A stretch of 64,000 nucleotides of DNA from Ianthella basta (taxonomy: Eukaryota; Porifera; Demospongiae; Verongiida; Ianthellidae), in the NCBI GenBank assembly GCA_964019415.1, contig OZ025870.1:9211415-9275414 (forward strand), in the 5' to 3' direction. The position numbers and the translations under genes are program-made. The notes beneath the pieces are model-generated. The model was not told the origin of the DNA and searched no databases. It worked only from the letters and a program-made list of their open reading frames with translations. Below, one piece after another: positions 46,440 to 63,488 of this stretch. Positions within the stretch are counted from its first letter, which is position 1. The number at the start of each line of letters is the position of its first letter.

Positions 46440-48508
46440 ATGAACACGGCAGCCAGCCACAGAAGGGACTTTGAGGAGTTCACACTGCAGAAGTTTCCCC
46501 CAGACAACAAAAGGGAACTAGTGGAGTTTACCACAGGGATTTTGGTGACAGAGTTGGAGCAGCAATCAAAGATCCCTCTAGTGCAGCTTTGTCAAGAAGA
46601 CCAGATTACAACTGCTAGACCTCCCAAGTCTAGGTGCACGTGATGTGCTAGTTGTGCCAGCAAAGGAGCAAGTGTGTCAGCTAGCTAACAATAAGTGCTT
46701 GTAGAGTAGCTAGTGTATAGTGTAGTCACAGCTAGCTAGCTATAGCTACAATAGAATAGCTATGTAACTTCATGAAGATCCAGCTAAATTATATTTCACC
46801 TAGATGCATATATACTATTCATCCTGATAACTACATATAACTGTCTTATTATTTCTTCCATTCACAAAGACAGTGGAGGACAACTCTGTCCTGGGACAGT
46901 ATCGTAGGGTGGCATATGTGGATGAATTTTACTCCATTATCCACGATGTTCATGAAAAGGATCTTCTGCATGCAGGTTACAAGAAGACATTTGATAAGGT
47001 AAGTATGCATGGCATTGCAGTTTTATGTAATAAATATGGATGTAGGTACATATGCTTGTGACTGTAATTCTGTATCGTACATAAAATGATATTAAATTTT
47101 GCAATCTGATCATTATAATTATTAAATCTGTTGTACTAGATTCAGAGCATGTACCACGGTATCCCACAGAGTGTGGTGGAAAGATTTGTAGCCACATGCC
47201 CCCACTGTCAGCTGCGCAAACCTCAGCTTTCCACTGCTCCTTTAAAGTCCATCATTGCTAATGGCTTTTTGTGTAGGTTGCAGGTGAGCATAATTAATTT
47301 CCTAGCATGTACATATGTGCATGCATGCACACGTTGCAGCACTATCAATGTTCAAATGTCTTTTGGGTTAACGTTATAAGCATACTTCAATTACTCATTC
47401 AGATTGATCTCATAGTCATGAGACACTTGCCAGACAACGAGAACAGGTGGATTCTGCACTGTGTTGACCATTGGTCAAAATTCAATTTTGCCTTCGCCCT
47501 TCCCAGAAAAAAAGCAGCCAGTGTGGCTGCAGCTCTCAACAGCTACCTTTCCCCCTACTTTGGAGTTCCACGGATTCTACACTCTGACAATGGGCGAGAA
47601 TTTGTGAACAGTGTGATTGAAGGTTTGCTTGCGATTTGGCATTGTGACATCCAACTGGTCAGTGGCCGTCCTAGACATCCGCAGAGCCAGGGATTAGTGG
47701 AGAGAGCTCATTTCACACTGGAGAAGAAGCTCGCATCAGAGATTAGTAAGAACAACTCCAAGAACCCACCATGGAGTGCCTAGCTGCCTCGACTAATCTG
47801 TTAGTTGCATAGAGCATACATGCAGACTTACATGCAGAATGTCTATTACAGTCTTTATACTTTACACAATAATATTATATTTGTGCATTCAGATGCTATG
47901 AATACACAGGTGCATGAAACAACAGGAAGGAGCCCGTATGAACTTGTGTTTGGCCAAAAGCCCAGATCCGTCCTGTTTCCAGTATCGACTGCCACTGGAG
48001 TCATTTTGGAGGAGGACTTGACCAATGACGGATTGCACTTCGACACTGGGACATCTGCATTTGAGATGCCAGCGGAACAAATTGATGCGGAGGATGTTGA
48101 GGACTGCAACCAAGACATGGATGTGAATCTAGTCTAATCAATACATGGGCACTTAATACCATGCATATGTTTATTTGATCATGATGTATAATTATATTCT
48201 GATGTTATAGAAGTCATAGTGGAGTACTGAAAGTATGCTACCCAGCAAGCGAGCTAGAGGGGTACACTGGTTCACTGCCATGGTCAGTACAAGGGTGGCA
48301 GCAGGCTGCTTCTACTTCTTTGAGAAAAGCTGCAAGGGAACAAGCTCCATGGAATCAATTTGTGGCAAATGCTTACAAGTGCACAACTGGTTGTGTGACT
48401 CGGAAATGCCACTGCATAAAGCAGGGCATTAGTTGCAGCTCACATTGCCATGGAGGCAAAACCTGCACTGGAAAAATCTGTGACTTTACTAGCTTTACTG
48501 AGAGTTAA
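46440..48508 (+). CDS. Ginger-type integrase-like transposase with CXC-like tail, multi-exon
   Basis: Possible exon 1 starts at ATG 46440 (CACCATGA context). Exon 2 (46874-46998) and exon 3 (47140-47283) give the H2C2 zinc-binding domain: IIHDVHEKDLLHAGYKKTF, then YHGIP...CPHCQLRKPQ. Exon 4 (from 47403) is the integrase core: VDHWSK (first Asp), ILHSDNGREF (second Asp) and GRPRHPQSQGLVERAH (Glu). Exon 5 (47893-48137) continues with TGRSPYELVFGQKPR. A cysteine-rich stretch at about 48380-48470 (CTTGCVTRKCHCIKQG, then CSSHCHGGKTC) matches the tail of KRBA2/Ginger-type proteins. The enzyme class cuts and joins transposon ends by DDE chemistry. The copy carries one or more breaks. The exon 1 to 2 junction is uncertain. 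Confidence 0.75.
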
Positions 48509-48870
48509 ATCTATCTTAAATGTGATGGCATTTAACTTTAAGACAACTTTAAGTTCTAACTTTCACCTTTAAGGAGTTCCAACTTTCACGAACTTTAAAA
48601 CACAAATACTGTGATCTAAAGCTAACTTATAGTTGACAAGAATAACTATAATATATCTTTAAGTTTCAACTTTCAGCTATAAGGTATGACTAATTCAGCA
48701 ACTTTAGTTTGTATTTAACTGTGAGCTAAAGCTAACTTAAATTAGAAAACAACTACCTTTAAGATGACTTTAAATTCAACTTTCATTTATACAGGTGAGC
48801 AGTACCTCATTAGCTTTAGTGTGTACATACTGTGAGCTAAACCTAGCTTAAATTTGGAACAACTATACCT
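48509..48870. repeat. TTTAAG-rich tandem repeat, left half
   Basis: Diverged copies of a unit of about 115 bp: ACCTTTAAGATGACTTTAAG, TTCCAACTTTCACTTATA, GGTGAGCAGTACCTC-TTAGCTTTAGTGTGTA, TACTGTGAGCTAAAGCTAGC. The array continues after the nested element at 57952, which shows where that element inserted. Confidence 0.85.
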
Positions 48871-49151
48871 AAGACCTTCTTAGAATGACTGTCTCATTAT
48901 TAAAATGAATGTCCACAAGGGGTATTGCTATAAAACAGATCATTATTTCCACTGTATTCGTCACTGCTTAGAAAATCATGTTATTGCAGCAATTGCTAAT
49001 GGTTGTATAGTTTTAAGGATACATATTGATGAACTTAAGTGAGAGTAAAGTTTAAAATCCTCTATGATGATGAATAAATGGTGCATACAACAACTGTTTG
49101 TTTATATTGTTGTCAATGTTTGCTGAATAAGTTAATATATGATGTTATTCC

Positions 49152-51817
49152 TCATTAACTTGACTGGCAATTGCTAAGAACTCAATTTCTGCCATCGTGT
49201 CCGGCCCTGCATTAAAAGTGATGACATCTCTTCCGGCTCTAATACAGGTACTGGAGATTTCACCTGAAACATGAAGATAAAGACATTTGCAATATAATTT
49301 ATGTGTACCATTGTAATGAGCCACTGTGTATGTCATGATATCTTGGGCACAATTTTGTGACCCACATGTACAGTTGACATGCATGTGAAATTGCTTGTGA
49401 TCTGGTTATGTGTATTGTACTAGGTATCTTGGACACAATTTTGTGACCTACACTTGACTTGTGAAATTGCATATGTTTGTGTGCTATGTATGTATTATAT
49501 CTTGGCCACAATTTTGTGACCCACAGTTTAATCTAACCAGCACACAGGCGCGGACCGCGGACCTAGGCGCGTGACTCCTGACCAATGAGATGCTCGTATT
49601 TGGCTGCTATGAATACAATTGCCAAGGATCCTTGGCAATGGTATTCATAGTTCTTGTGGGGTATGGCCGTTGCCTGAGCGGCAGCGAGGAAGCGAAATCG
49701 TTTATCGTATCAAAGTTAGAACGAAAGAATATCATTCTATCGTAACGTGAACTCTCGTGACAGGCCAACGGGTCGTTCGACGTCTGTTGTAGTGGGGGCT
49801 TTACCTCGTAGGAGAATGACTTTGCGTTCTTTGGATACACGGCGAAATACGAAGAAAGATGGTTTGGGGGCAATCAAAGAGAGAGCGTCGAGCGCGACCA
49901 TTTTACCCGTCCGTGATAATTGGAGCTGTATCTTGCAGAAGAGTCTTTCGCTAAGCTTTTTACCAGTATCATTCTATCAACACATGTTCATGAACACATT
50001 TCGTTCGACTCAAAGACTGCGAAACGCCATTAGAGACGATTTAAAGCGTAGCAAACTTAGCTAGCAAGCAAGCTAGTTATAAGCAATTAGCTACTGTTTA
50101 GCTACCTATTTCAATTTTGTGCTGTGGTGTCTAAACGTCTTAACTACCTACTCATGACGGCGGCTCCGAATGGGGTAGGCATTTCTCGGCGGAACGATTT
50201 TGGGCTTCGTTTCTCCCTTGATCATTCTTACAGACACGCCCTCCTGCCGAGCCAACACATGGACTTCCACCACAGCGTGTACCCGTTAAAACGCGTTAGG
50301 TCGTTCGATGATCTGATTGGGCGCACGATTTCCAGCTGTACGGAAAGAAAGCACCAGACCAGACCCTTCCCCGCTCTTCGTAAGTAGCTCACAATAATTA
50401 TAAATTTCTTGTGATCGGAAATTGGGAGATAAGAATTGGTAGATTTACCTTATTTATTTCGCGATTTTTAGGAAATTGGTAGTCTACCCACATTGACAGG
50501 AACTAGCTACGGAAGATACAACTTAACTGCTTGGTTGCAGAGGTGAGTCACGTGTATGAACCACTGTTCTATAGTCTGTATGTAGCAGTATCAGGTTTAG
50601 CAGACCCAAGTCTAGCCTAACCATTTTTAGTTACTGGTGACCTGTCTACGAAAAATGACCAAGGGATATCGCATCACTGTAGCCCCTGTTTGCTTCAGTG
50701 GCCAAATAGTTAAATGTTATGTACCTTCTTTGTTGTCTTCCTGGAAGACGACTACCAGTTCTCCTTCAACTGTGAACGCACGTATTAGTGTGGTCCACAG
50801 TTGCTCAGTGCTTCTGTAGACCACAAAGTTCTTGTGGATGGGAACTTCAGAGCACCTGAGGCTGACTCCTGGGGTGCTGTGGGCATCCTGTGCCCAGAAG
50901 CCAACCACAATTGCTGATACTGTGTTTGGGAACATCTGACCTACACAGGGAAAATTATGTCGATACACCAGCTGCAGTAAAAGTGCCATCTCATGCATGT
51001 CTACATAATATTGAATTTCTATGTGTAAGCACCAAATAAGTCATGCAATCCAGGATCATATAAGTAGCTTTATTGTTTCCTAGTTGCCCTAATCTCACGG
51101 GGCCAGACCCTTTCTCATGAAGCAGTATCATTTGTAAAGACTGTCGCATAGTGTAGCAGCCACTCTACGGGCAGCTGCCTCGATCCTTGCGCCTTCTTTG
51201 CACACCGCCATACTACGTCGGGTTGAACTTGACCCACAACAAAGAGGTGTTATGAAACACCTAGTCCGGCGTTCCCACGGATATTACACAACAGTTGAGC
51301 TAACTCCCAGACCCTTTCTCGGGCGCTTGCACAATACCGGAAAGGGTCTGGCCCCGCGAGACTATAGTTGCCCAGAAACCTCCTTTCAATTGCAAGAAAG
51401 TGAAAAAAAGAAAAGGTAATGCTTGTGAGGAATCAACTCTTAGAGAGGTTAGGCCGTTCTAGTCCAGTATGGTAGTGCGTGTGCCAACAAGTGGTCATGT
51501 AAATCAAGAAACCCCCTTTTCAACCGTCTGGCTACGCCTCTGTAATCTTGAAATAATACTAGGTTATGTACTGTATAATAGCTATTGCTGTAGCTGTAGA
51601 CTAACCTTCCAATGCCTGTGCATGGGCATCATCGAAACAACCATACATAGTCTGGCTGCATTGCAGGTGGGCTGCAAATACTTGGGCAAACTCTGCAGCC
51701 TTTTCCACACTGCAGTGAGCCATTATGATAAATGACTGTACAGCCATGTGAATGGTGCTGAGTTCTTTTGCACTCCAAGCAAGTGTTTTTATGTCCTCCA
51801 CATCAGCAGCATCATTC
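49152..51817 (-). CDS. possible methyltransferase-like minus-strand gene (three exons)
   Basis: Three minus-strand segments have good splice sites. The first is 51817-51609: acceptor TTCTTGTAG, NDAADVEDIKTLAWSAKEL, then donor GGAAG/gttagt. The second is 50944-50722: acceptor CCCTGTGTAG, MFPNTVSAIVVGFWAQD, YRSTEQLWTTLIRAFTVEGE and LVVVF, donor GAAG/gtacat. The third is 49260-49152: acceptor ATGTTTCAG, GEISSTCIRAGRDVITFNAG, ending IASQVNEE and a stop. The order L-IRAFT-GELVVVF ... G...TCIRAGRDVITF resembles the C-terminal SAM-binding half of DNA-adenine-type methyltransferases (G-D-VLDPF-G-G-T...A...GR..I..E), but the glycine-rich loop is degenerate and no catalytic DPPY is seen. The upstream part is missing. 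Real exons are likely; the function is a guess. Confidence 0.4.
49347..49526. repeat. subterminal CACAATTTTGTGACCCAC repeats at left of element B
   Basis: Three copies (about 49348, 49436 and 49508) of CACAATTTTGTGACC(C/T)(A)CA, one every 70-90 bp. The reverse-complement palindrome CACAAAATTGTG followed by the same GACCCAC occurs in the 36-bp array at the other end (57014-57301). Confidence 0.7.
49607..49650. promoter_or_regulatory. 44-bp loopless palindrome
   Basis: CTATGAATACAATTGCCAAG with GA/TC at the centre is followed by its reverse complement with one mismatch. It lies between the end of the minus-strand gene and the first plus-strand exon of element B. It may be a protein-binding site or a tiny foldback insertion. 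Confidence 0.6.
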
Positions 51818-54800
51818 TACAAGAACACAAAGTCACACACAGTGTTCAGTCATAACATTTTGATATGTCAGTACAATGGTGGAAGTGTTGTATACATATG
51901 TATCCTTAATATATTTAATCTTTTCCAGTCTGTGCGTTCGTTCGTTCGTTTGCTTGTGCGTGGCATTAAAAACGGGCATTTGATTGGACGACGCAATGAA
52001 GTAACTGCAAACATGGCTGCTTTGGCAGTGTACATGTGCCTTGCAGCCAGCCGTCTCTTAGACACTCTGCGCGCCTCTGTATGCATGTACATGCATAAGG
52101 TACGTATACACTCATACGTACATGTGAATAAGTACGCACTGGGAGCAAGAACATGTACATACAAAAATAGATACGTTTGGTATAAACATCATATTATGCA
52201 CCCTTGTCATCTTCTCTATAGGATTCAGTGATAGTGATGATGATGATGATGAGGTTCTGCACTTTTACAATATCGAAGGCGAACAGGAAGGTGTGTAAAC
52301 GTGACATGCACTGTGTGTGCGTGTGTGTGCATGTATACTGGTACGTACAGTGCATGCATAGTGGTACGTACGGTGTATGCATAGTGGTACGCACAGTGCA
52401 TGCATAGTGGTACGTACAGTGTATGCATAGTGGTACGTACAGTGTATGCATACTGGTATATGCAGTGTGCATATGTAATGTGCACATATTCAGACCTTTT
52501 GGACGCTAAGTGAATGTATGTACGTACTGTGTGTGTGTGCGCACATTTGTTGGTATATGCATGTGTGTGGGTGCTTGGGTCTAAATGTGTGTGTACGATG
52601 CAAAATAGATAAATGCAGTGTAAGAACTGATACTATTAATGTACCTTCACTATACGTAGCATCCAGTGACTCCTCCTCAGTCCATGATGATGATGATGAT
52701 AATGGTGACATCCTTCATTACTATGAGACAGAAAGCAGGCAGGAAGGTATAGTGTATACATATAATGCATAACTATACCTTAACCACATGATATACACCT
52801 GGCACAAAAATGGTATCGCATTATCTATACTGCTTGCACTATGTACGTGTGCTTGTGCCTGGGGTACATTAGCAAATACCCTTATCCTGCATAAAATGGT
52901 GACGAGTAGCAACAGGTACATAAAAGTGTAACACAAATAGTTAATGTGCATAAAATTAAATAGAACAGAACCAATCTGTTCAAACTTACTGTTTGGCATG
53001 TCAGTAAGGAGGACTAAGATATATACGTATATCTGAACGTATCCCATTAAATTATGGATGTACATTTTCTAAGATGAAATAAGTTGTCACAAAATTGCAC
53101 TTGCACAACTAACTGGACACAATTGCAAGTATGTAACTAAAATAAATCGACAATCATCCACAATATTTAATTACTATACATAATAGGTCCATCATGCTGC
53201 TCATGTAACTGCTTGAGTAGCGTGGATGAGGACTACAGGAAGAAATGCCATGAAGTATTCAAGGGAAAAAAACAGGCATGAGCAGCGTCAATTCATTCTG
53301 GACTTGATGGTGGCATCTCAGACTAGCAAACAGGAAAGGAAGTTTAAGGTTTGAATGTCTGGCAAGCCTACTAGAGACTGCTAATACACAACTTTATACA
53401 ACTCGTCAACTACGTAATAGACAGCTGTAAGTTTGTATTATACTCTTAATACTCATGTTACAGCTTATGATGCAAGGAAGATGGCTGTGCTGCAAGGCAT
53501 TTGCCCATTTGTTAGAGACGACTACAAAAAGGGTAAGACGAATTCATAGCCTGTACCATTCTGGGGTGACAACACTGGACCGAATAACACCTCAAGGACG
53601 CAACACTTCCAACAGGTACAATACCATTTTACACAGAAATGCAACAAATTACATAATATTATGCATACATTAACTACATGCCTGCCTGCAGGACTGAGCA
53701 AGCAGTGGCATGGATGAACGGGTGGTTTCAGCTAGTGGGAGACCACATGCCCGACAGTCAGATGATCCACCTACCCAATTTTCTTACCAGAGAAGGAATC
53801 TATAAAGAGATGGAGCAGGAAATGAGGGCTGAAGGGATGATGAAAGAAGAGATAGTGTCCCTGTCACACTTTCATCAGCTTTGGTCAAAACACTTCCCAT
53901 GTGTATCCATCCCAAAGGTACGTACTGAGTGAAACGTTACATTGTATATCTCAGATTTTATAAAACAGAACCTGCCCATATCCACCCACCCACCCACACA
54001 CACAAACACATATACACAAACACACACATGTACACACGCACAGACCAATCGATTTGCACAATGTGACACCTGCGCAAAGTACAAACAGGAAAAGAGGAAG
54101 TTAACCGGTAACAAAGAGAGAGTGGCACAACTGGAGGCAGAATACAAACTGCACATGGGGGAGATCAAGTGAGCAGAAAGGTTTTCTCCAGAGCAGTACA
54201 AGAAATACTTAAGTATGAATTGTTTCACTCAATGCTTTTACAGGTTAGAGAGGAATAAGTACCACAAACATGTTAGAAAAGCACGCTCTAACCCAAGCAA
54301 GTATATGACCATAATAATTGACGAGATGGACCAGGAGAAGACAAGTCTTCCCTTTTTGCCGAGGGAAAGCAAGGCAGCCCAGGTTGAATAGCATACACAA
54401 GAAACATGAGAGTTGATAACTTTACACAAAGTATAATAATGCACAATGGTCCACATCCTACTCACACCAGATTAAACTGACATATCACCTTTTGTGTCAA
54501 CATTGCAGGGTCTGTGGAGACTCAAAACCCACGTTACTGGAGTCATCGTTCACACTGATGTTGAGCATGGTAAGAAAGTATATGCTTTTGTGGACCATCT
54601 GCAATGGCCACATGACTCCAATTTGACAATAAACATTTTGGAGGAAGTACTCTCAGAGTGGCACCACAACCAACTCCCAGACGTCCTATATCTACAGCTG
54701 GACAATTGTTTCCGGGAAAACAAGAACAGGTACCTCTTTGGGTACTGTGCCAACTTGATAGAGTTGCAAGTATTCAAAAAGGTGAGTACAATACAGGACA

Positions 54801-57687
54801 CATTCGGCTTCACTATATAGTGGCGGATTGTCTGTAGTGGATACAACTTTGAATGGTACATACGTATTGACAGACTCTTACTAATAGGGAATTATTTAAA
54901 TTATTATAATAAAACTAGACAAATATGAGGTTCCTCAGTCAATCCTAACTGTAGTCACATGGACAACTGCTAGTGTTTATATACTATAATGATGGAACAC
55001 AAGTAAATTCCCAACTCTTCATTTTGTTTCTGTTATGTACGTAGATCAGAATCAACTTCCTGCATGTGGGCCATACCCATGCAGATGCTGACCAGTTTTT
55101 TAGTCGCATATCTCAGAGAGTCCAGAGACATGGAGCTCAGAGTATGACAGGTAATGTAACAATGATGATGTTTTCGTGCACTAGTAGTAAATATGTACAT
55201 ATGCTAAATTTTAACATTAAATTTTTCATTAGGGCTGATTAAAGTCTAGCATGTCACAGTCTTTGAAAGTAAGTGACATGTCACTAGGTTCCAAAAATTC
55301 TGATCACTTTACAGATCTTTGCCATCAAATCAAGGAATCATACACACCAGCAGCAAAAACAGTGGTTCTAGACAGGGTGTATGATTACAAGGATCACTAC
55401 GACGGTCATATTGACAAGATCAGCGGCCACTCACGTCCTCTGTGCTTCAAGTTCCAGCTGGTTGAATCCAGAGCCTTTCTGCAGTACCGCCACAACAGCA
55501 GCTGTGCCTGGATCACCTGCAGAACACCACTCTTGAAGGTTTGCCGATAAATGTGCATGGTTGAAAAGGCAAAATGGGGTACCAGCAGCCTATGACGCTA
55601 TTCTCTTACGTGCTCTCCACGTTGCCATTGGGTACGCTGTCGTTGTCAATACCTCAAAATAAGCCTATCCATGGTCTTTAATTGTACTTTGCCATAGCCG
55701 TTTGGCTAGTTTCGCTGAAGCGCCCCAATACATTAAGACAGGAGACGCCATTTTGAACCGGCACATTCCTAAATTATTAGTCTCGTTCCCAGCCCACTTC
55801 CGGCCGCCATTTTAAAATGGCGGGCGGAAGAGGGCTTGGAACGACACTATTCCTAAATAGACGTCACGAGCGTGACGTCTGATTACATGTATAGTTTGTC
55901 TAACTTTCAGAATGCCCTGCAAAAATGTCTTAAATTTCTGCTACAGACACAACCCAACAACAGGATGACACCAGCGCAAGTACCACCTACTTTGGAGAAG
56001 AATGACATGCCTCTTCTGAGACGGGACATCCCAAAGTGGTTAGAGTGGCTTGAAGAGGAAGCCTGCCAGGAGTGGCAAGCCTTTCTGAGAGACCCTCTTC
56101 CTCCTGGCACACGGGAGCACAAGCTACCACAACTGGTGGAAATGAGGAAAGCTGAGGACCACCATCACTCTGTGGAGAGGTGTTCCATACTTTCAAGACC
56201 AACATTCAGTGAGGTTGGTGCCACACTGCGAGAGAATTTAATGCCATAGAGTAAATCAGCATCTGTGATTCAGACTGTAAGTGACTTTCTTGGCGTCTGA
56301 AATAATAGAATACAGCTCTCCACATTAGTGTATACACAGTACAAGTTATACTAGTGTATAAAATTGCATGGTACTAGCTAGCTAGCTACAAATTTGTGCC
56401 CATGCAGCTGTACAAGGAAATTAGAAATGCAGGGTGAACTCCATGGAAATGAGGCTTATCACGGTGTTGAGTTACTGGTGCTTGTTTCTATGCTTCTTCT
56501 GCTGGCCATTTCTAAATCCATTTTAATTTTGAAGGAATTTTATAGCTACACTAATTTGTACAGTATTTGCATATCCAAATGGCTATAACTACATTACATT
56601 AATACCTGCATTGAGTAATACCCCTTCGGATCCTTAAATTAGATGAAGACTGTGCAGAACATTGAGCACAGTTATGCTACTCTAGATGAACTGGCTGCCG
56701 TGTTACCATAATGGTTATACATACATGCGAGCACAACAAAATGGCGGCATTGGGGTATCTTAATATGCGGGGAAGACAAACTTCCCACCCGCTCCAGCGC
56801 TGTACTTATTGGATTGACACCGGAGCTTAGATATTTGCCCTTCACGTCCATACGTAAGTCCTCATACATGACTTGGGTCTGTAGGTGCCTTGTGTCGTGC
56901 GCTAGGAGCATGCAAAAATTTGGTGGGAAAGAAAATAATATGAAAAGACAAAATGGGGTACTAGCAGCCTATGATGCTTTTCTCTTATGTGCACTCCAGG
57001 TTGCCTTTGGGTACTATACCAGTTCACAAAATTGTGACCCACTTTGCTACTATACCAGTTCACAAAATTGTGACCCACTTTGCTACTATACCAGTTCACA
57101 AAATTGTGACCCACTTTGCTACTATACCAGTTCACAAAATTGTGACCCACTTTGCTACTATACCAGTTCACAAAATTGTGACCCACTTTGCTACTATACC
57201 AGTTCACAAAATTGTGACCCACTTTGCTACTATACCAGTTCACAAAATTGTGACCCACTTTGCTACTATACCAGTTCACAAAATTGTGACCCCTTTTGCT
57301 ACTACACTCCATCATCCTTGTATTATCATGCTCCAGGTCATTATTGGCTCCCGAACTGGAGTGGTGGGCGTGGAAGACACCTCTTATCTGAGTGTTGGCT
57401 CTCTTGTGGCCGTAAACGTTGAGGAATGGGATCCACCTTGTATCGGATTGGTCTCTGAGGTCAAAGGGGAGGAAGAGGTGGAGGTAGCCTGGCTGAGGGG
57501 CAGCTACACCAAGCCATGGCTGCCATGGATGGTCCCAGATCCAACAGACCAGCGAAGAAAGACGCAGTGGTGCACTGCAGTGAGGAGAGAGGCAATACTT
57601 TTGTATAACTTCAAGCTCACCAAAGGCAACAAACTCCGTCGCAATGTAATCCAAGCACTAAAAGAACAGTACGAGGCCTTGCTGTAG
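50154..57687 (+). CDS. DUF7869-like putative transposase of element B, multi-exon
   Basis: A possible first exon (50154-50381, MTAAPNGVGISRRNDFGLRF) ends at a GTAAGT donor. Two similar acidic exons (52222-52290, 52660-52746) precede CSCNCLSSVDEDY (53187-53348; a frameshift at an A-run). Then follow GRWLCCKAFAHLLE (53464-53615); WMNGWFQLVGDHMP and SHFHQLWSKHFPCVSIPK (53692-53917); RFAQCDTCAKYK (54044-54168); YMTIIIDEMDQEKTSLP (54244-54382); LYLQLDNCFRENKNRYLFGY (54509-54781); FLHVGHTHADADQFFSRIS (55045-55150); VYDYKDHYDGHI (to 55538); a WLEWLEEEACQEWQAFL exon (55914-56249); and a Tudor/SH3-like C-terminus with LVAVNVEEWDPPCIGLV (57337-57687). The D in IIDEMDQ, in QLDN and in GHTH-ADADQ form a plausible RNase H-type triad. 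Junctions are GT/AG. A stop lies at the 55233 junction, so this copy is slightly decayed. Confidence 0.65.
51094..51360. mobile_element. 267-bp MITE inside element B
   Basis: CTCACGGGGCCAGACCCTTTC at the left is mirrored by GAAAGGGTCTGGCCCCGCGAG at the right (one mismatch). The interior has no coding capacity. It lies in an intron of the minus-strand gene. No clear target duplication was found. Confidence 0.75.
52325..52480. repeat. 23-bp minisatellite (TGGTACGTACAGTGTATGCATAG)n
   Basis: About six head-to-tail copies inside an intron of the element B gene, between the two acidic exons. Units differ at C/T positions. Confidence 0.85.
55778..55847. mobile_element. 70-bp hairpin mini-MITE
   Basis: AGTCTCGTTCCCAGCCCACT on the left pairs with the right arm GAGGGCTTGGAACGACACT around the central palindrome CCGCCATTTTAAAATGGCGG. 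It lies in an intron of the element B gene. A TGACGTCA-like palindrome (ACGTCACGAGCGTGACGT) follows at 55862-55879. Confidence 0.6.
57014..57301. repeat. 36-bp tandem repeat, eight copies
   Basis: Eight near-perfect copies of a 36-bp unit containing ACCAGTTCACAAAATTGTGA and then CCCACTTTGC. Because 36 is divisible by three, several frames on both strands stay open and read as 12-residue repeats (for example YTSSQNCDPLCY); they are not evidence for a protein. The copies sit in an intron just before the last exon of the element B gene. A short exon-like stretch before them (56953-57011) duplicates one near 55572-55630. Confidence 0.9.
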
Positions 57688-57951
57688 TTCAAAACACCTG
57701 AATTGCTGTAATCTCATGTCTGTTATTCATCTGTAATCAATATTATCATGAAATGAGAATATCTTCAGTATACTCACATCTGAATTGTTCTGCCATCATG
57801 GGGCAATCTTTGACCTTAGTGCAAATGTAGTTTGAGAATTATGCAAGAATGATGCTAATTGCAATTAAAAATTAGCACATTTGGCCATGATCAGGCAAAA
57901 TTATCTCTGGACAGTCATTCTAATAATAAGACACTCATTCTTAGAGGCTGT

Positions 57952-58215
57952 TACCTTTAAGATGACTTTAAGTTCCACTTTCACTTATACAGGTGAGCAG
58001 TACCTCATTAGCTTTAGTGTGTACATACTGTGAGCTAAACCTAGCTTAAATTTGGAACAACTATAATTACTTTTAAGTTTCAACTTTCACTTATAGGTGG
58101 GCAGTACCTCGTTAGCTTTAGTATGTATATACTGTGAGCTAAAGCTAGCTTAAATTTGGAAACACCTACCTTTAAGATCACTTTTAAGTTCCAACTTTCA
58201 CGTATAGGCGAGCAG
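57952..58215. repeat. TTTAAG-rich tandem repeat, right half
   Basis: Resumption of the 115-bp tandem unit seen at 48509-48870, starting with the duplicated TACCT. Bases 57952-58064 closely match 48751-48864. Confidence 0.85.
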
Positions 58216-60349
58216 CATATTATAATTATATATAATTATTCGACTTCACTCTGCACATGTTTATATGAAGCTAGGCTTATATGCCTGACACTGCATGTGC
58301 AAGCCCAATATGTCATAACTGCTCACATGGTCGTCTCTTGTAACAGGCGTGACCAGTGAAGATGTCACATGCAAGATTGATCACCTTACTGGACCATATG
58401 CATGACCCTGCATTCCACACAACAACATGCAGTCCATGACCAGGAGGTGAAGCAATCGTGCACAAGGACTGCGCCTAAAATGCACACTATGCATGCTATA
58501 GTTATAGCTACTACTTTATGTCATCCCTTAGAGAGAACTGCAGACAGCCACAATCAATGTAGCTGTTTCGCCCTGTTTGGGGACTCCTCAGTGCAGTGCA
58601 CTCTCAACCCTTGCATGCAAGGTGCAGCTAGTGTGTTAATAACATGCAAGCATCAGTTGTGCAATACACACATCGTGAACTGAAATAAGGTGATCTTAGG
58701 CCGATTTACATAAACTCCAGTGCAAATGACACACATAAGTGTATTTCAGGCAATACCAAGCCATCATCAGGTTTGCTGGGAGCGAATGTGGCTGTCTGAA
58801 CTTCACAGTGAAACACAGACCTACTATTAGTTGAGGCAAGCAAAGTCGTTCACAGATGCAGACTAGGGCACACACAGAGGCAGACTAGGGCGAAGAGGCG
58901 CAAACAGCTACACACTGTAATACACCACAGTCTGCAAGCAAACATGACTGGGCAGTCTGTTTAGAAAACAACACAAGTTTACTGGACACTAGCACACGAC
59001 ACCAGTAGGACTAGGCACCTACTTACTAAAACTAGCTCTTGCACTATTAATTTTACAACTCAGTATGCTTTAATGATTTGAAACTGTATCTCTAATATCA
59101 TGCATAGAATCATGTGTACTTGCATGGAAAGTAATCAACAGGAGACTTTCCATATACTCATATGACATGAGACGAAGAGTAGGACCTTTCATATGTATAC
59201 CTATATCAAATAGCTATGCCCCTTGTGTATCACTAGACACCTATGCCACATGAATGGTGTACAGGCACAAACCACCAACTTATCATATGATCAGAGCTAA
59301 TTAAACAGCTGCAAGCTAGCAAAAATAAGTTTGAGTTCGAATCAATCGGGTAAGAAGAAATTCCCTAAAAAGGAAAGACACTTAGCTAGCCAGTACATGT
59401 GAGTACTAGTCTCACGTAGGCTATGCGAGTACACCATGTGGGTTTGTTACATAATCACGTGAACATACTGAATCACTGTCAGTGAAGTCTGAAGTGCGTA
59501 CACACACTCGCTGACACGCACGTACCCACTGTAGCTACGTACTGATTTTACCTTTCCTTTCCAAAGTAAGGCGACGGCGTTAGCCCTGTACCAGCAACAA
59601 GTGAAGAAAGCGGGACAGGTAAAGAAATCTAGCCGTTGTGCTACCGCCATTTTGTTGTAATGACGTCATCAGCCCGCGCGGTTGTTTTAAATTTGAAGAT
59701 GCATCTTGGGCGGAATCAGGCTGACCGGGGTTGTGTTCATGATCTATGTGCTATCGTAAGCACACACGTTAGAATGTTAGGCTCAACAGCTTCTCGAAAA
59801 GCAGTAATCAAGGTCTTTTGGTGAGTCTTTGGTTATGTTGCTACTAGCTGATCATCTGCTGAATAGATTGTAACTAGGTAGTTTACAGGTAGTTTGCTAG
59901 CTTATTCACAATCAAGTAAGTTGTATGAGATTGGAACTTGATTGCGATGCTCACCGTGCGTGCATATTCGCGTTTGTCATCAGTGTCTCCATTGCCCCTG
60001 GCCTTCGGTAGCAGGGATTTCTCAGCTGGATAGCTATTTGTTCAGGTGAGACTATAGCTGATGAGAAAGCAGCCAGTAACTCAAATCATTGGCACTACGT
60101 TAACATGCAAGAGCCTTGAAACACTTTAGTAAATGATTAATAGCTAGTAGCTGTGTTGCTGACCTGTTTCATCAGAATAGGTATGAGATATGTATTTCAT
60201 AGACCTGTAGCCTGTGCCACTGACTGCATTTTTACTGCATGCTGCAGGTGTTACACCATCAGCTATCCATGGAGAGCAATATGGAGTGGAAGTTTGATTG
60301 TGAACCACCCTGAGAAGACGCACATCTCATTGGAGAGCAGGTGTGCTCC

Positions 60350-61350: not shown

Positions 61351-63488
61351 AGCACCCCCACAAAAGAAGCTCAAGATGATGCTTCCCAATACCAGTTGCT
61401 CTCCTACCCTCGTTGACTGTGATGCCATGCAGCAAGCACCACGTCACTCTCCTGGCTCCAGTGCCCATCCTAGCTGTACGTGAATTGCAATGTTATAGTA
61501 AGAGCTGCCATTAATGACAAAAGTACATGCATGCATGTTGTCATAGAGTGTAACGTACGTCTGCCATAAAAGCTCATTTGACTCATGCGATTATTACATT
61601 GTGCTCTACAGTGCATGATGAAGAATTGGAGAAGCAGGTGTTTTCTGATAGTCTGCTGCAGTTGTGGCAGACTGGAGGAGATGCCGTACGAGCAAATGCC
61701 ACAAATGAACATCATGATGTAAGACAACCCATGCATGCATACACAAATACAATGTACATATTATTGCATGTGCGTTTCAACATCCTATATTTTGCCCTAT
61801 ATACATAACCTGTAATAGTCAAATGCCAACTAACAGATATCTGCAGGATTAACAGTGTGAAGCTTAACATTTTCAGTTTCATCAACAGTTTTATATAAAT
61901 GTTCATTGTAAGGTATAAAGTAATGATGTGTCGTCCTTCCTTTCAGCTCTGTGAACACTTCCAGTCACCTGGAGAGTATGCACTTTTTGTGGACACACAT
62001 GTCGCTCTATGGCTAGACTCATGTGCACACAAGAAGCTGCCTTGCCTGCCTGAGGTGTGTGGGGCTCCGTAATAGTGACTGAGACTCTGCAGGAGGAGTT
62101 TGACAAGTTCAAATCTGCCTTGCTTAATATGGAATGCAGCCGTTTGGAAATTGGTCCCCTACTCCAATATTAGAATGCCTTTGTGAGGCCAACACATGGC
62201 ATCCCGATCACAATGTTTGGCAAGCAGTACCTTGAGCTTCACTACTCAGAGGTAGACTGCCTCTGCCAATGGGTTGTAGACACCAGAGCCTGTGGAAGAA
62301 GGGACATCACCATTTCTGATAGTGGCTTATCGCTTTCTAATTATCCACCTGTGCCAGTCAAGCCAGAGAAACCAGACAAGCTGGAGAAACCAGTCAAGCT
62401 GGAGAAACCACTCAAGAGACAGAAGGTACTCAATTCCTGATATCATGTGCTTTAAAACTACAGTAACTGCTTCTCGTAGTGCTTATTATAGTTTTTTAGT
62501 TTCTTTTTGCAGATGGCAGAAACAACAGCCAGGGACGGTGACACCACCGGCACTACTAATCTTGATGAACAAATGGGACAGCTACTACCAGCAGCAACAA
62601 GCAGAGACAGAGATGATGTAGTGGCTCTTGGTCAACCACAGCAACAGCTACTACAAACAGCAACAGCAGTAAACAAGGATGTTGAGGTTATTAATGCAGA
62701 CATGCACACTTGCAAACTACCACCAGAACCATATTGGATCCAGCATCTTGAGCTTCGTGAACACGATAAAGAACTGCTCACAGGGGGCAACTGGCTCACT
62801 GATAAACATATCAATGCATTCAACAAGCTGCTAAAACAGCAATGTCCGATGCAAAATGGTCTGTATGACCCACTTTTAATAGCAAAGATGACAAGACACT
62901 CTGAAACAGCGAACTTCGTTCAAATTATCAACTTAGACAACTTGCACTGGGTGTGTGCAGCAAACATTGGCTGCCCAGACAACACTGTCAACATCTATGA
63001 CAGCTTGCCTACATATTCAGTAGGCTCAAAATCTCTGCACAAACAAATGCAGCCATGCTATATATATATGCACTCAAAAGAAGTGCTTTGAACTTCGGTT
63101 CATTAATGTGCAGCGGCAGTGTGGGAGTGCTGATTGTGCATTGTTTGCAATTGCAAACAGCACAGCATTGTGTTTTCGCCAAGATCCTCATCAAATAAGA
63201 TACGACCAGTGCCAGATGAGGCAGCACCTCCAGAAATGCTATGAGGAGGGGAGGATGCAACTTTTTCCCACACACACAACTGCCCCAAGAAAGAAGAGGA
63301 AACAAGTCTGTACCACAGTTACAGTGCCTGTATATTGTTTGTGCAGGCAACCACATACCCAAAGTACAATGATACAATGCCATACCTGCAAGGAATGGTA
63401 TTATGACAATTGTCTTCCTAATATTGGAGAACAATTCTGGAAAACAAACATGAAGTGGGTGTGTACCACCTGTACTACCCAACTGTAA
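61351..63488 (+). CDS. Ulp1-like cysteine protease with C-terminal PHD finger (Ginger cargo domain)
   Basis: Upstream exons 61351-61475, 61612-61718, about 61947-62080 and about 62097-62425 (ending in proline/lysine-rich PVKPEKPDKLEKPVKLEK) all have AG/GT limits. The main exon starts at ATG 62513. It reads WLTDKHINAFNKLL, then LDNLHWVCAANIG (catalytic His), NIYDSLP (Asp) and QCGSADCALFAIA (Gln and catalytic Cys), the order of the Ulp1/SENP C48 fold. After a basic linker comes a PHD-type zinc finger, YCLCRQPHTQSTMIQCHTCK and then EWYYDNC, ending VCTTCTTQL. Ulp1 proteases cleave ubiquitin-like modifiers; in Ginger1 such domains are known C-terminal additions to the transposase. The copy has a couple of breaks. 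It may be the 3' half of the same gene as the integrase. Confidence 0.75.

Follow-up and report, generated by a model that had tools for sequence, protein, structure and literature searches.

A deleted copy of a two-gene DUF7869 transposon, probably of the Sola superfamily, in the genome of the sponge Ianthella basta

The window, i.e. the whole stretch of 64,000 nucleotides of Ianthella basta DNA analyzed here, harbors a mobile element, referred to as B, bounded by terminal inverted repeats (TIRs) and a 4-bp target-site duplication (TSD). Its right arm contains a gene for a protein of the Pfam family DUF7869, and its left arm the remaining exons of a companion gene on the opposite strand. The features of the locus, with window coordinates, are as follows.

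48466..48870, plus strand: left host flank, a multi-copy repeat with tandem units, target of the B insertion; 98.8% identical over 405 bp to the empty site on contig C6
48867..48870, no strand: left target-site duplication, ACCT
48871..57952, plus strand: element B, 9,082 bp, an internally deleted copy, delimited by the TIR match, the 4-bp TSD, two more copies and the empty site
48871..48914, plus strand: left terminal inverted repeat (AAGACC...)
49145..49270, minus strand: final companion-gene exon, with the stop
50717..50935, minus strand: remaining companion-gene exon, with a family G counterpart seen by eye
51601..51816, minus strand: remaining companion-gene exon, conserved in C3 and C5, with a family G counterpart seen by eye (alignment A5)
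52077..52078: deletion junction, at which about 7.8 kb of the C5 copy, including upstream companion-gene exons, are missing
53692..56249, plus strand: right-arm exons of the DUF7869 transposase gene, with borders deduced from GT/AG sites
54245-54382, 54510-54781, 55048-55150 and 55317-55538, plus strand: core DUF7869 exons
57335..57687, plus strand: candidate final exon, with an open frame up to the stop at 57687, tentatively linked to the transposase gene
57909..57952, minus strand: right terminal inverted repeat (reverse complement AACAGCC...)
57953..57956, no strand: right target-site duplication, ACCT
57957..59500, plus strand: right host flank, joined to the left one at the empty site; 99.2% identical over 1,544 bp

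The ends of B were determined by comparing its termini with each other and with the rest of the genome. With the right end at 57952, 36 of 44 ungapped positions are identical between the left 44 bp and the right 44 bp, compared to just 11 of 44 with the end at 57951, and shuffling the letters of one arm 20,000 times gives at most 26 of 44, which corroborates the TIR-like ends of about 45 bp described in the original prediction. Both ends were searched against the whole genome containing the window (209 Mb, 96 contigs), as had been proposed, and two more copies sharing both ends were found, on contigs C3 and C5. The left-end query (307 bases) gives at least four matches, three of them full-length at 98-100% and the fourth partial, at 85% and without the terminus, while the right-end query (263 bases) gives at least five. 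A T lies directly after the right end, as originally placed, in all five B-family right ends among the matches listed, and the next four bases beyond it differ (ACCT, TGTA, TTAT, TGGT and ATTT). Since this T is constant while the four bases beyond it vary and, in the three copies with both ends, equal the four to the left of the element, it is part of the element; hence, B ends at 57952 on the right and has a duplication of 4 bp. The element had been placed at 48871 to 57951 with a 5-bp TACCT duplication. Its left end stands and its right end moves 1 bp further; TACCT does occur on both sides, but its T is element-derived, so the 5-bp duplication was rejected as a chance T beside a 4-bp one. 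The three copies with both ends (window, C3 and C5) have the TSD ACCT in the window and TGTA and TTAT in the other two, and the longest direct match flanking each of them is exactly 4, instead of the 5-6 bp for which an alignment of flanks had been suggested.

Two sets of short repeats are found inside B. Eight near-perfect copies of a 36-bp unit with a common CACAAAATTGTG core, in inverted orientation, occupy window positions 57012-57304, and three looser copies lie at 49335-49525, near the other end of the element. They are possible candidates for transposase-binding sites.

The state of the locus before the insertion can be read from an empty site. A query in which both B flanks were fused with a single ACCT yields 59 matches in the genome, the best of which (C6:9250340-9250539, 196 of 200 bases, no gap) shows the left flank contiguous with the right one across one ACCT. 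Hence, the B insertion hit one member of a multi-copy host repeat, and the search for empty sites put forward earlier is answered by a near-identical one. The tandem repeat said to continue outside both ends is indeed present on both sides of B, with units of about 104-111 bp, and the flank unit is 97% alike on the two sides over 114 bp.

To the left of B, an open frame at 47298-47780 matches the rve integrase domain (PF00665, E 2.7e-11). The segment shared with C6 begins at 48466, about 0.7 kb to the right of this frame and, as judged by eye, where that gene ends, and a 46-bp piece at the 48466 border recurs at many places in the genome. This fits a Ginger-like element that carries B nested at its 3' end. 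The nesting in a Ginger element that had been proposed stands in part: B did insert into a host repeat beside the rve frame, but termini of an outer Ginger-like element around B were looked for and none were found. Ginger elements share with B the 4-bp TSD; the rve-type transposase, however, is absent from B, whose joined protein gives no rve match in Pfam at E up to 10, and the Ginger-like integrase frame lies outside it. On the other side of B, an open frame at window positions 62492-63088 shows a weak match to the Ulp1 protease (Peptidase_C48, E 1.8e-4).

The three copies of B differ widely in size, with 6,203 bp for the C3 copy and 22,762 bp for the C5 copy, and B had been described as complete. 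About 7.8 kb of the C5 copy are, however, absent from B between 52077 and 52078, and since this block carries exons of the second gene, its loss from B is the simplest interpretation. The C3 copy keeps the first 1.2 kb of the block, followed by a separate deletion, and with the start of the block thus shared by C3 and C5 the completeness of B was rejected. Regarding coding capacity, the C5 copy has one in-frame stop within the transposase core, and the core transposase exons of B, as joined, have none; a B-specific frameshift near 53260 was also considered and rejected because the C5 copy has equal length there. B is thus an internally deleted and probably non-autonomous copy of a large two-gene transposon. 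Within the C5 copy, in turn, about 6.1 kb of inserted sequence carry an open frame of 951 aa (locus L017, 4095-6950), which by eye is LINE-like (reverse transcriptase and endonuclease), with GGAAATGTACAGG-like repeats close to both ends of the insertion.

The right-arm gene was predicted to be of the DUF7869 type, and the joined exons match this family in Pfam with an E value of 2.1e-65. The three sequence blocks on which its recognition was based, IIDEMDQ, QLDNCFRENKNR and GHTHADADQFF, are all present, in separate exons of the multi-exon gene. The DN....NKN and GHT....D motifs are invariant in the seven DUF7869 proteins aligned, although a B-like copy, L029, has Asn in place of the second Asp. 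These conserved Asp motifs (DNxxxxNKN and GHTxxxxD) likely belong to a DDD transposase, with the position of the first catalytic Asp differing in the alignment, where IIDEMD of B is offset with respect to the SFD or SAD of the other proteins. Weak matches to DDE_Tnp_ISAZ013 (PF07592), below the cut-off, are obtained for two host DUF7869 proteins (E 0.0049 and 0.079) and span the second and third Asp motifs. The assignment as a DDE/D-type transposase thus gains from the Asp motifs and the weak DDE hits, which make DDD likely, with an ambiguous first Asp. A comparison of DUF7869 with solved structures gave no significant match, and no mention of the family was found in the literature searched.

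DUF7869 is not confined to B. The genome contains 69 matches to the family, including near-identical sets with long intronless frames, and four further DUF7869 families with TIRs and 4-bp duplications were delimited, referred to as F2, F3, F4 and G. A full copy of family G measures 12,516 bp, and the F4 elements 2.5 kb, with DUF7869 as the only large gene. Over B, F2, F3, F4 and G, 11 of 12 end pairs are flanked by equal 4-mers, a count which for F2, F3 and F4 is favored by the placement of their ends where termini and flanks agree, and which for B and for the G copy on C14 is independent of that choice. The longest direct match is exactly 4 in 10 of the 11 equal pairs, the remaining one being an F3 copy in an AT repeat; both F3 pairs among the 11 lie inside such repeats and are little informative. 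The twelfth pair, from the C7 copy of family G, reads CTGT and ATGT. Two of the five F2 loci and two of the three F3 loci were extended to the left end. The targets are ATTT and ACTT for F2, ATAT for F3, ATAT and AAAT for F4, and ATAT and CTAG for G; AWWT fits both of the F4 pairs, both F3 pairs (in AT repeats) and one of the two F2 pairs. No TIR was found at the similarity borders of F5 and F6, two pairs of near-identical DUF7869 loci, nor were TIRs or ends found where they were sought in the L025, L027 and L028 set. Among the other loci, C20:2468569-2500565 has three DUF7869 matches within 32 kb, with near-equal score and identical profile range, as in a local duplication, and a PHD finger is found at the N terminus of a DUF7869 protein from the two-copy family L043 and L047 (L043 1210-2334, E 3.6e-05).

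A search of prokaryote genomes with an alignment of seven DUF7869 proteins retrieved eleven bacterial loci, with 31-43% identity in the best segment and 236-598 query residues spanned. Metagenome bins are the source of some of them, and a named strain, Desulfocicer vacuolatum DSM 3385, of at least one. Inverted repeats were searched for in seven of the eleven (all but L062, L065, L066 and L067), and six of these seven have them around the gene: L057 to L061 have an inverted pair of about 40 bp near the gene on both sides, the pair of L064 is longer and less perfect, and L063 shows no fitting repeats around its DUF7869 gene. Flanking 4-mers were read for six loci; they are AT-rich and equal in two of them (AAAT, AATT), the other four, read by eye, being ATAT/ATTT, AAAT/ATTT, ATAT/ATGT and ATAT/AAAT. 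Bacterial elements in which no large gene other than DUF7869 is present measure about 2.1 kb and have TIRs. In alignment A3, which has B exons as two of its 12 rows and excludes L061, 11 of 12 rows match DUF7869 and three weakly match PF07592 (best E 0.018), and NCBIfam searches of four bacterial transposases gave nothing useful. No relatives were found in viral contigs, in three scans, or in plasmids, in a scan with a bacterial relative as query. The protein of L063, from a metagenome-assembled Cycloclasticus symbiont of a Poecilosclerida sponge, has a GHTKFAPDR block as in host F3 and F4, unlike the other bacterial loci, and this gene may be sponge DNA in a bacterial bin or a transfer.

Five families with TIRs and 4-bp duplications, together with six of seven bacterial relatives lying between inverted repeats, support DUF7869 as a mobile-element protein. 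Moreover, since small elements with DUF7869 as their sole large gene have TIRs, it is the most plausible transposase there, and it is very likely the transposase of B as well. In a tree of 25 core sequences, in which eight of the eleven bacterial loci were used, several rows are exon-joined fragments and several B-like rows miss an exon, the 11 B-like sequences, that of the window among them, are separated from the remaining host families and from the bacterial sequences with a support of 100 and on a long branch.

The companion gene is conserved and divergently transcribed, and its upstream exons survive in the C5 copy. One of these exons has 17 matches in the genome, 8 of which have a DUF7869 match no more than 20 kb away, compared to a mean of 0.94 when places are shifted along their own contigs (0 of 5,000 shifted sets reach 8). 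The eight are not independent, as two are family G copies and one (C2:4784531) is located beyond the right end of a family G copy. Companion and transposase genes are arranged back to back, pointing outwards, in six of the eight nearby pairs and otherwise in two. By eye, the companion protein displays a GGxH block reminiscent of ParB and a tail that resembles a methyltransferase. Pfam yielded no significant match to either of the two, one exon has no match in NCBIfam, a search of the whole genome with PF01555 and PF02195 does not hit the gene, the protein matches none of the solved structures, and hhalign comparisons with phage ParB/methyltransferase proteins gave no support. Against a wider ParB set the score was 12.64, with 11.80 for the reversed control, and 23 of 60 column shuffles reached at least that score. 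The profile tests being negative, the ParB and methyltransferase look of the companion is therefore one of inspection by eye and of analogy. A separate region, C2:3933571-4040246, has four companion-exon matches over about 107 kb, three of them equal-scoring, with no DUF7869 match within 270 kb, and may represent a host gene that arose from the companion gene.

B and its relatives were compared with the known DNA transposons by features, i.e. by description rather than by sequence match. According to the published description, Sola elements are found in bacteria and metazoans, encode a DDD transposase, produce 4-bp TSDs, measure 2-9 kb, or in some cases over 15 kb, and have TIRs of 11-1124 bp (PMC10741241). 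The 44-bp TIRs of B lie within that range, the 4-bp TSD is shared by the three two-ended B copies (3 of 3) and by 11 of 12 pairs over the five families, and DUF7869 elements, with eleven bacterial loci here, are likewise both bacterial and eukaryotic; TIRs, duplications, Asp motifs, size and bacterial relatives thus fit the published description of Sola. For Sola2, the published account gives 4-bp, AT-rich TSDs of the form AWWT, with ATAT, AAAT and ATTT among them (PMC3627910). F2, F3, F4 and the bacterial relatives resemble these in their TIRs and 4-bp AT-rich targets (ATTT, ACTT, ATAT, AAAT and AATT among them), whereas the targets of B (ACCT, TGTA and TTAT) do not show the preference and its proteins form a separate clade. 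Sola1, reported from bivalves too (PMC10294476), includes an element of Ectocarpus, Sola1-1_Ec32, with an opposite-strand second gene that has ParB-like and methyltransferase domains according to a 2025 report (PMC12477816). Both it and B are large two-gene elements with a transposase and a second gene on the opposite strand, and B has the superfamily's 4-bp TSD; the two domains went undetected in the companion of B. In layout, B comes closest to Sola1, and by target site F2, F3, F4 and the bacterial elements come closest to Sola2. ISAzo13-type transposases (PF07592) show a weak profile match to DUF7869 proteins, below the Pfam cut-off where bits are given.

Taken together, B is probably, as we see it, a deleted copy of a two-gene DDD cut-and-paste transposon, best placed in the Sola superfamily and nearest Sola1 by architecture. 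We infer for B the catalysis, the RNase H fold, the Sola membership and the function of the companion. In the proposed mechanism, the right-arm DUF7869 protein would act as a DDD transposase that binds the TIRs of about 44 bp, excises the element and inserts it at breaks staggered by 4 bp; this staggered joining would duplicate 4 bp of the target, and the B lineage would show little preference for particular sites. The opposite-strand gene of the left arm would produce a companion protein, a putative DNA binder or marker of the element by analogy with Sola1-1_Ec32.

The original prediction took B as an autonomous or once-autonomous member of an undescribed superfamily, and an assignment of B and its B-like relatives to a DDD superfamily of their own, so far undescribed, with 4-bp duplications and only a distant relationship to Sola, may be argued from the fully supported split and long branch of the B-like proteins, from B TSDs lacking the AWWT preference reported for Sola2, and from the lack of mention of DUF7869 in the literature searched. 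We consider it unlikely, given that both groups score above the cut-off of a single Pfam model, that TSD length is equal, Sola being made up of groups that differ in termini and targets, and that the opposite-strand two-gene layout matches the published Sola1 element. Since the combination of features is that of Sola and a Sola1 element also has such a second gene, the undescribed superfamily lacks support. Nor do we see much room for DUF7869 being a cargo or regulatory protein of an element moved in trans by another transposase: its catalytic fold is deduced, which would leave space for such a role, but the small elements with DUF7869 only (F4 of 2.5 kb, bacterial ones of about 2.1 kb) have TIRs, and this reading is very improbable. 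Finally, the 97% likeness of the flank units on both sides could come from a rearrangement of the tandem array or an assembly join instead of an insertion, an explanation that is hardly credible in view of the C6 site with one ACCT and contiguous flanks, and of two more B insertions in other flanks.

A wider proposal, which we regard as doubtful, treats the B-like lineage as a distinct group or superfamily of two-gene DDD transposons with unselective 4-bp targets, where a companion of unrecognised fold would assist or mark the element, DUF7869 would be the transposase and the prokaryotic kin would be insertion elements. A new member of Sola with a curious second gene is more likely than a wholly new kind of transposon.

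With B read as a Sola-type element, the uncharacterised Pfam family DUF7869 gains a likely job, that of a Sola-type transposase, as indicated by the ends, the target duplications and the empty site, and the DUF7869 elements of this genome are tied to bacterial elements with inverted repeats. Because B-like elements carry a conserved divergent second gene, the idea that certain eukaryotic transposons may encode a protein binding or modifying their own DNA could be examined in this lineage too.
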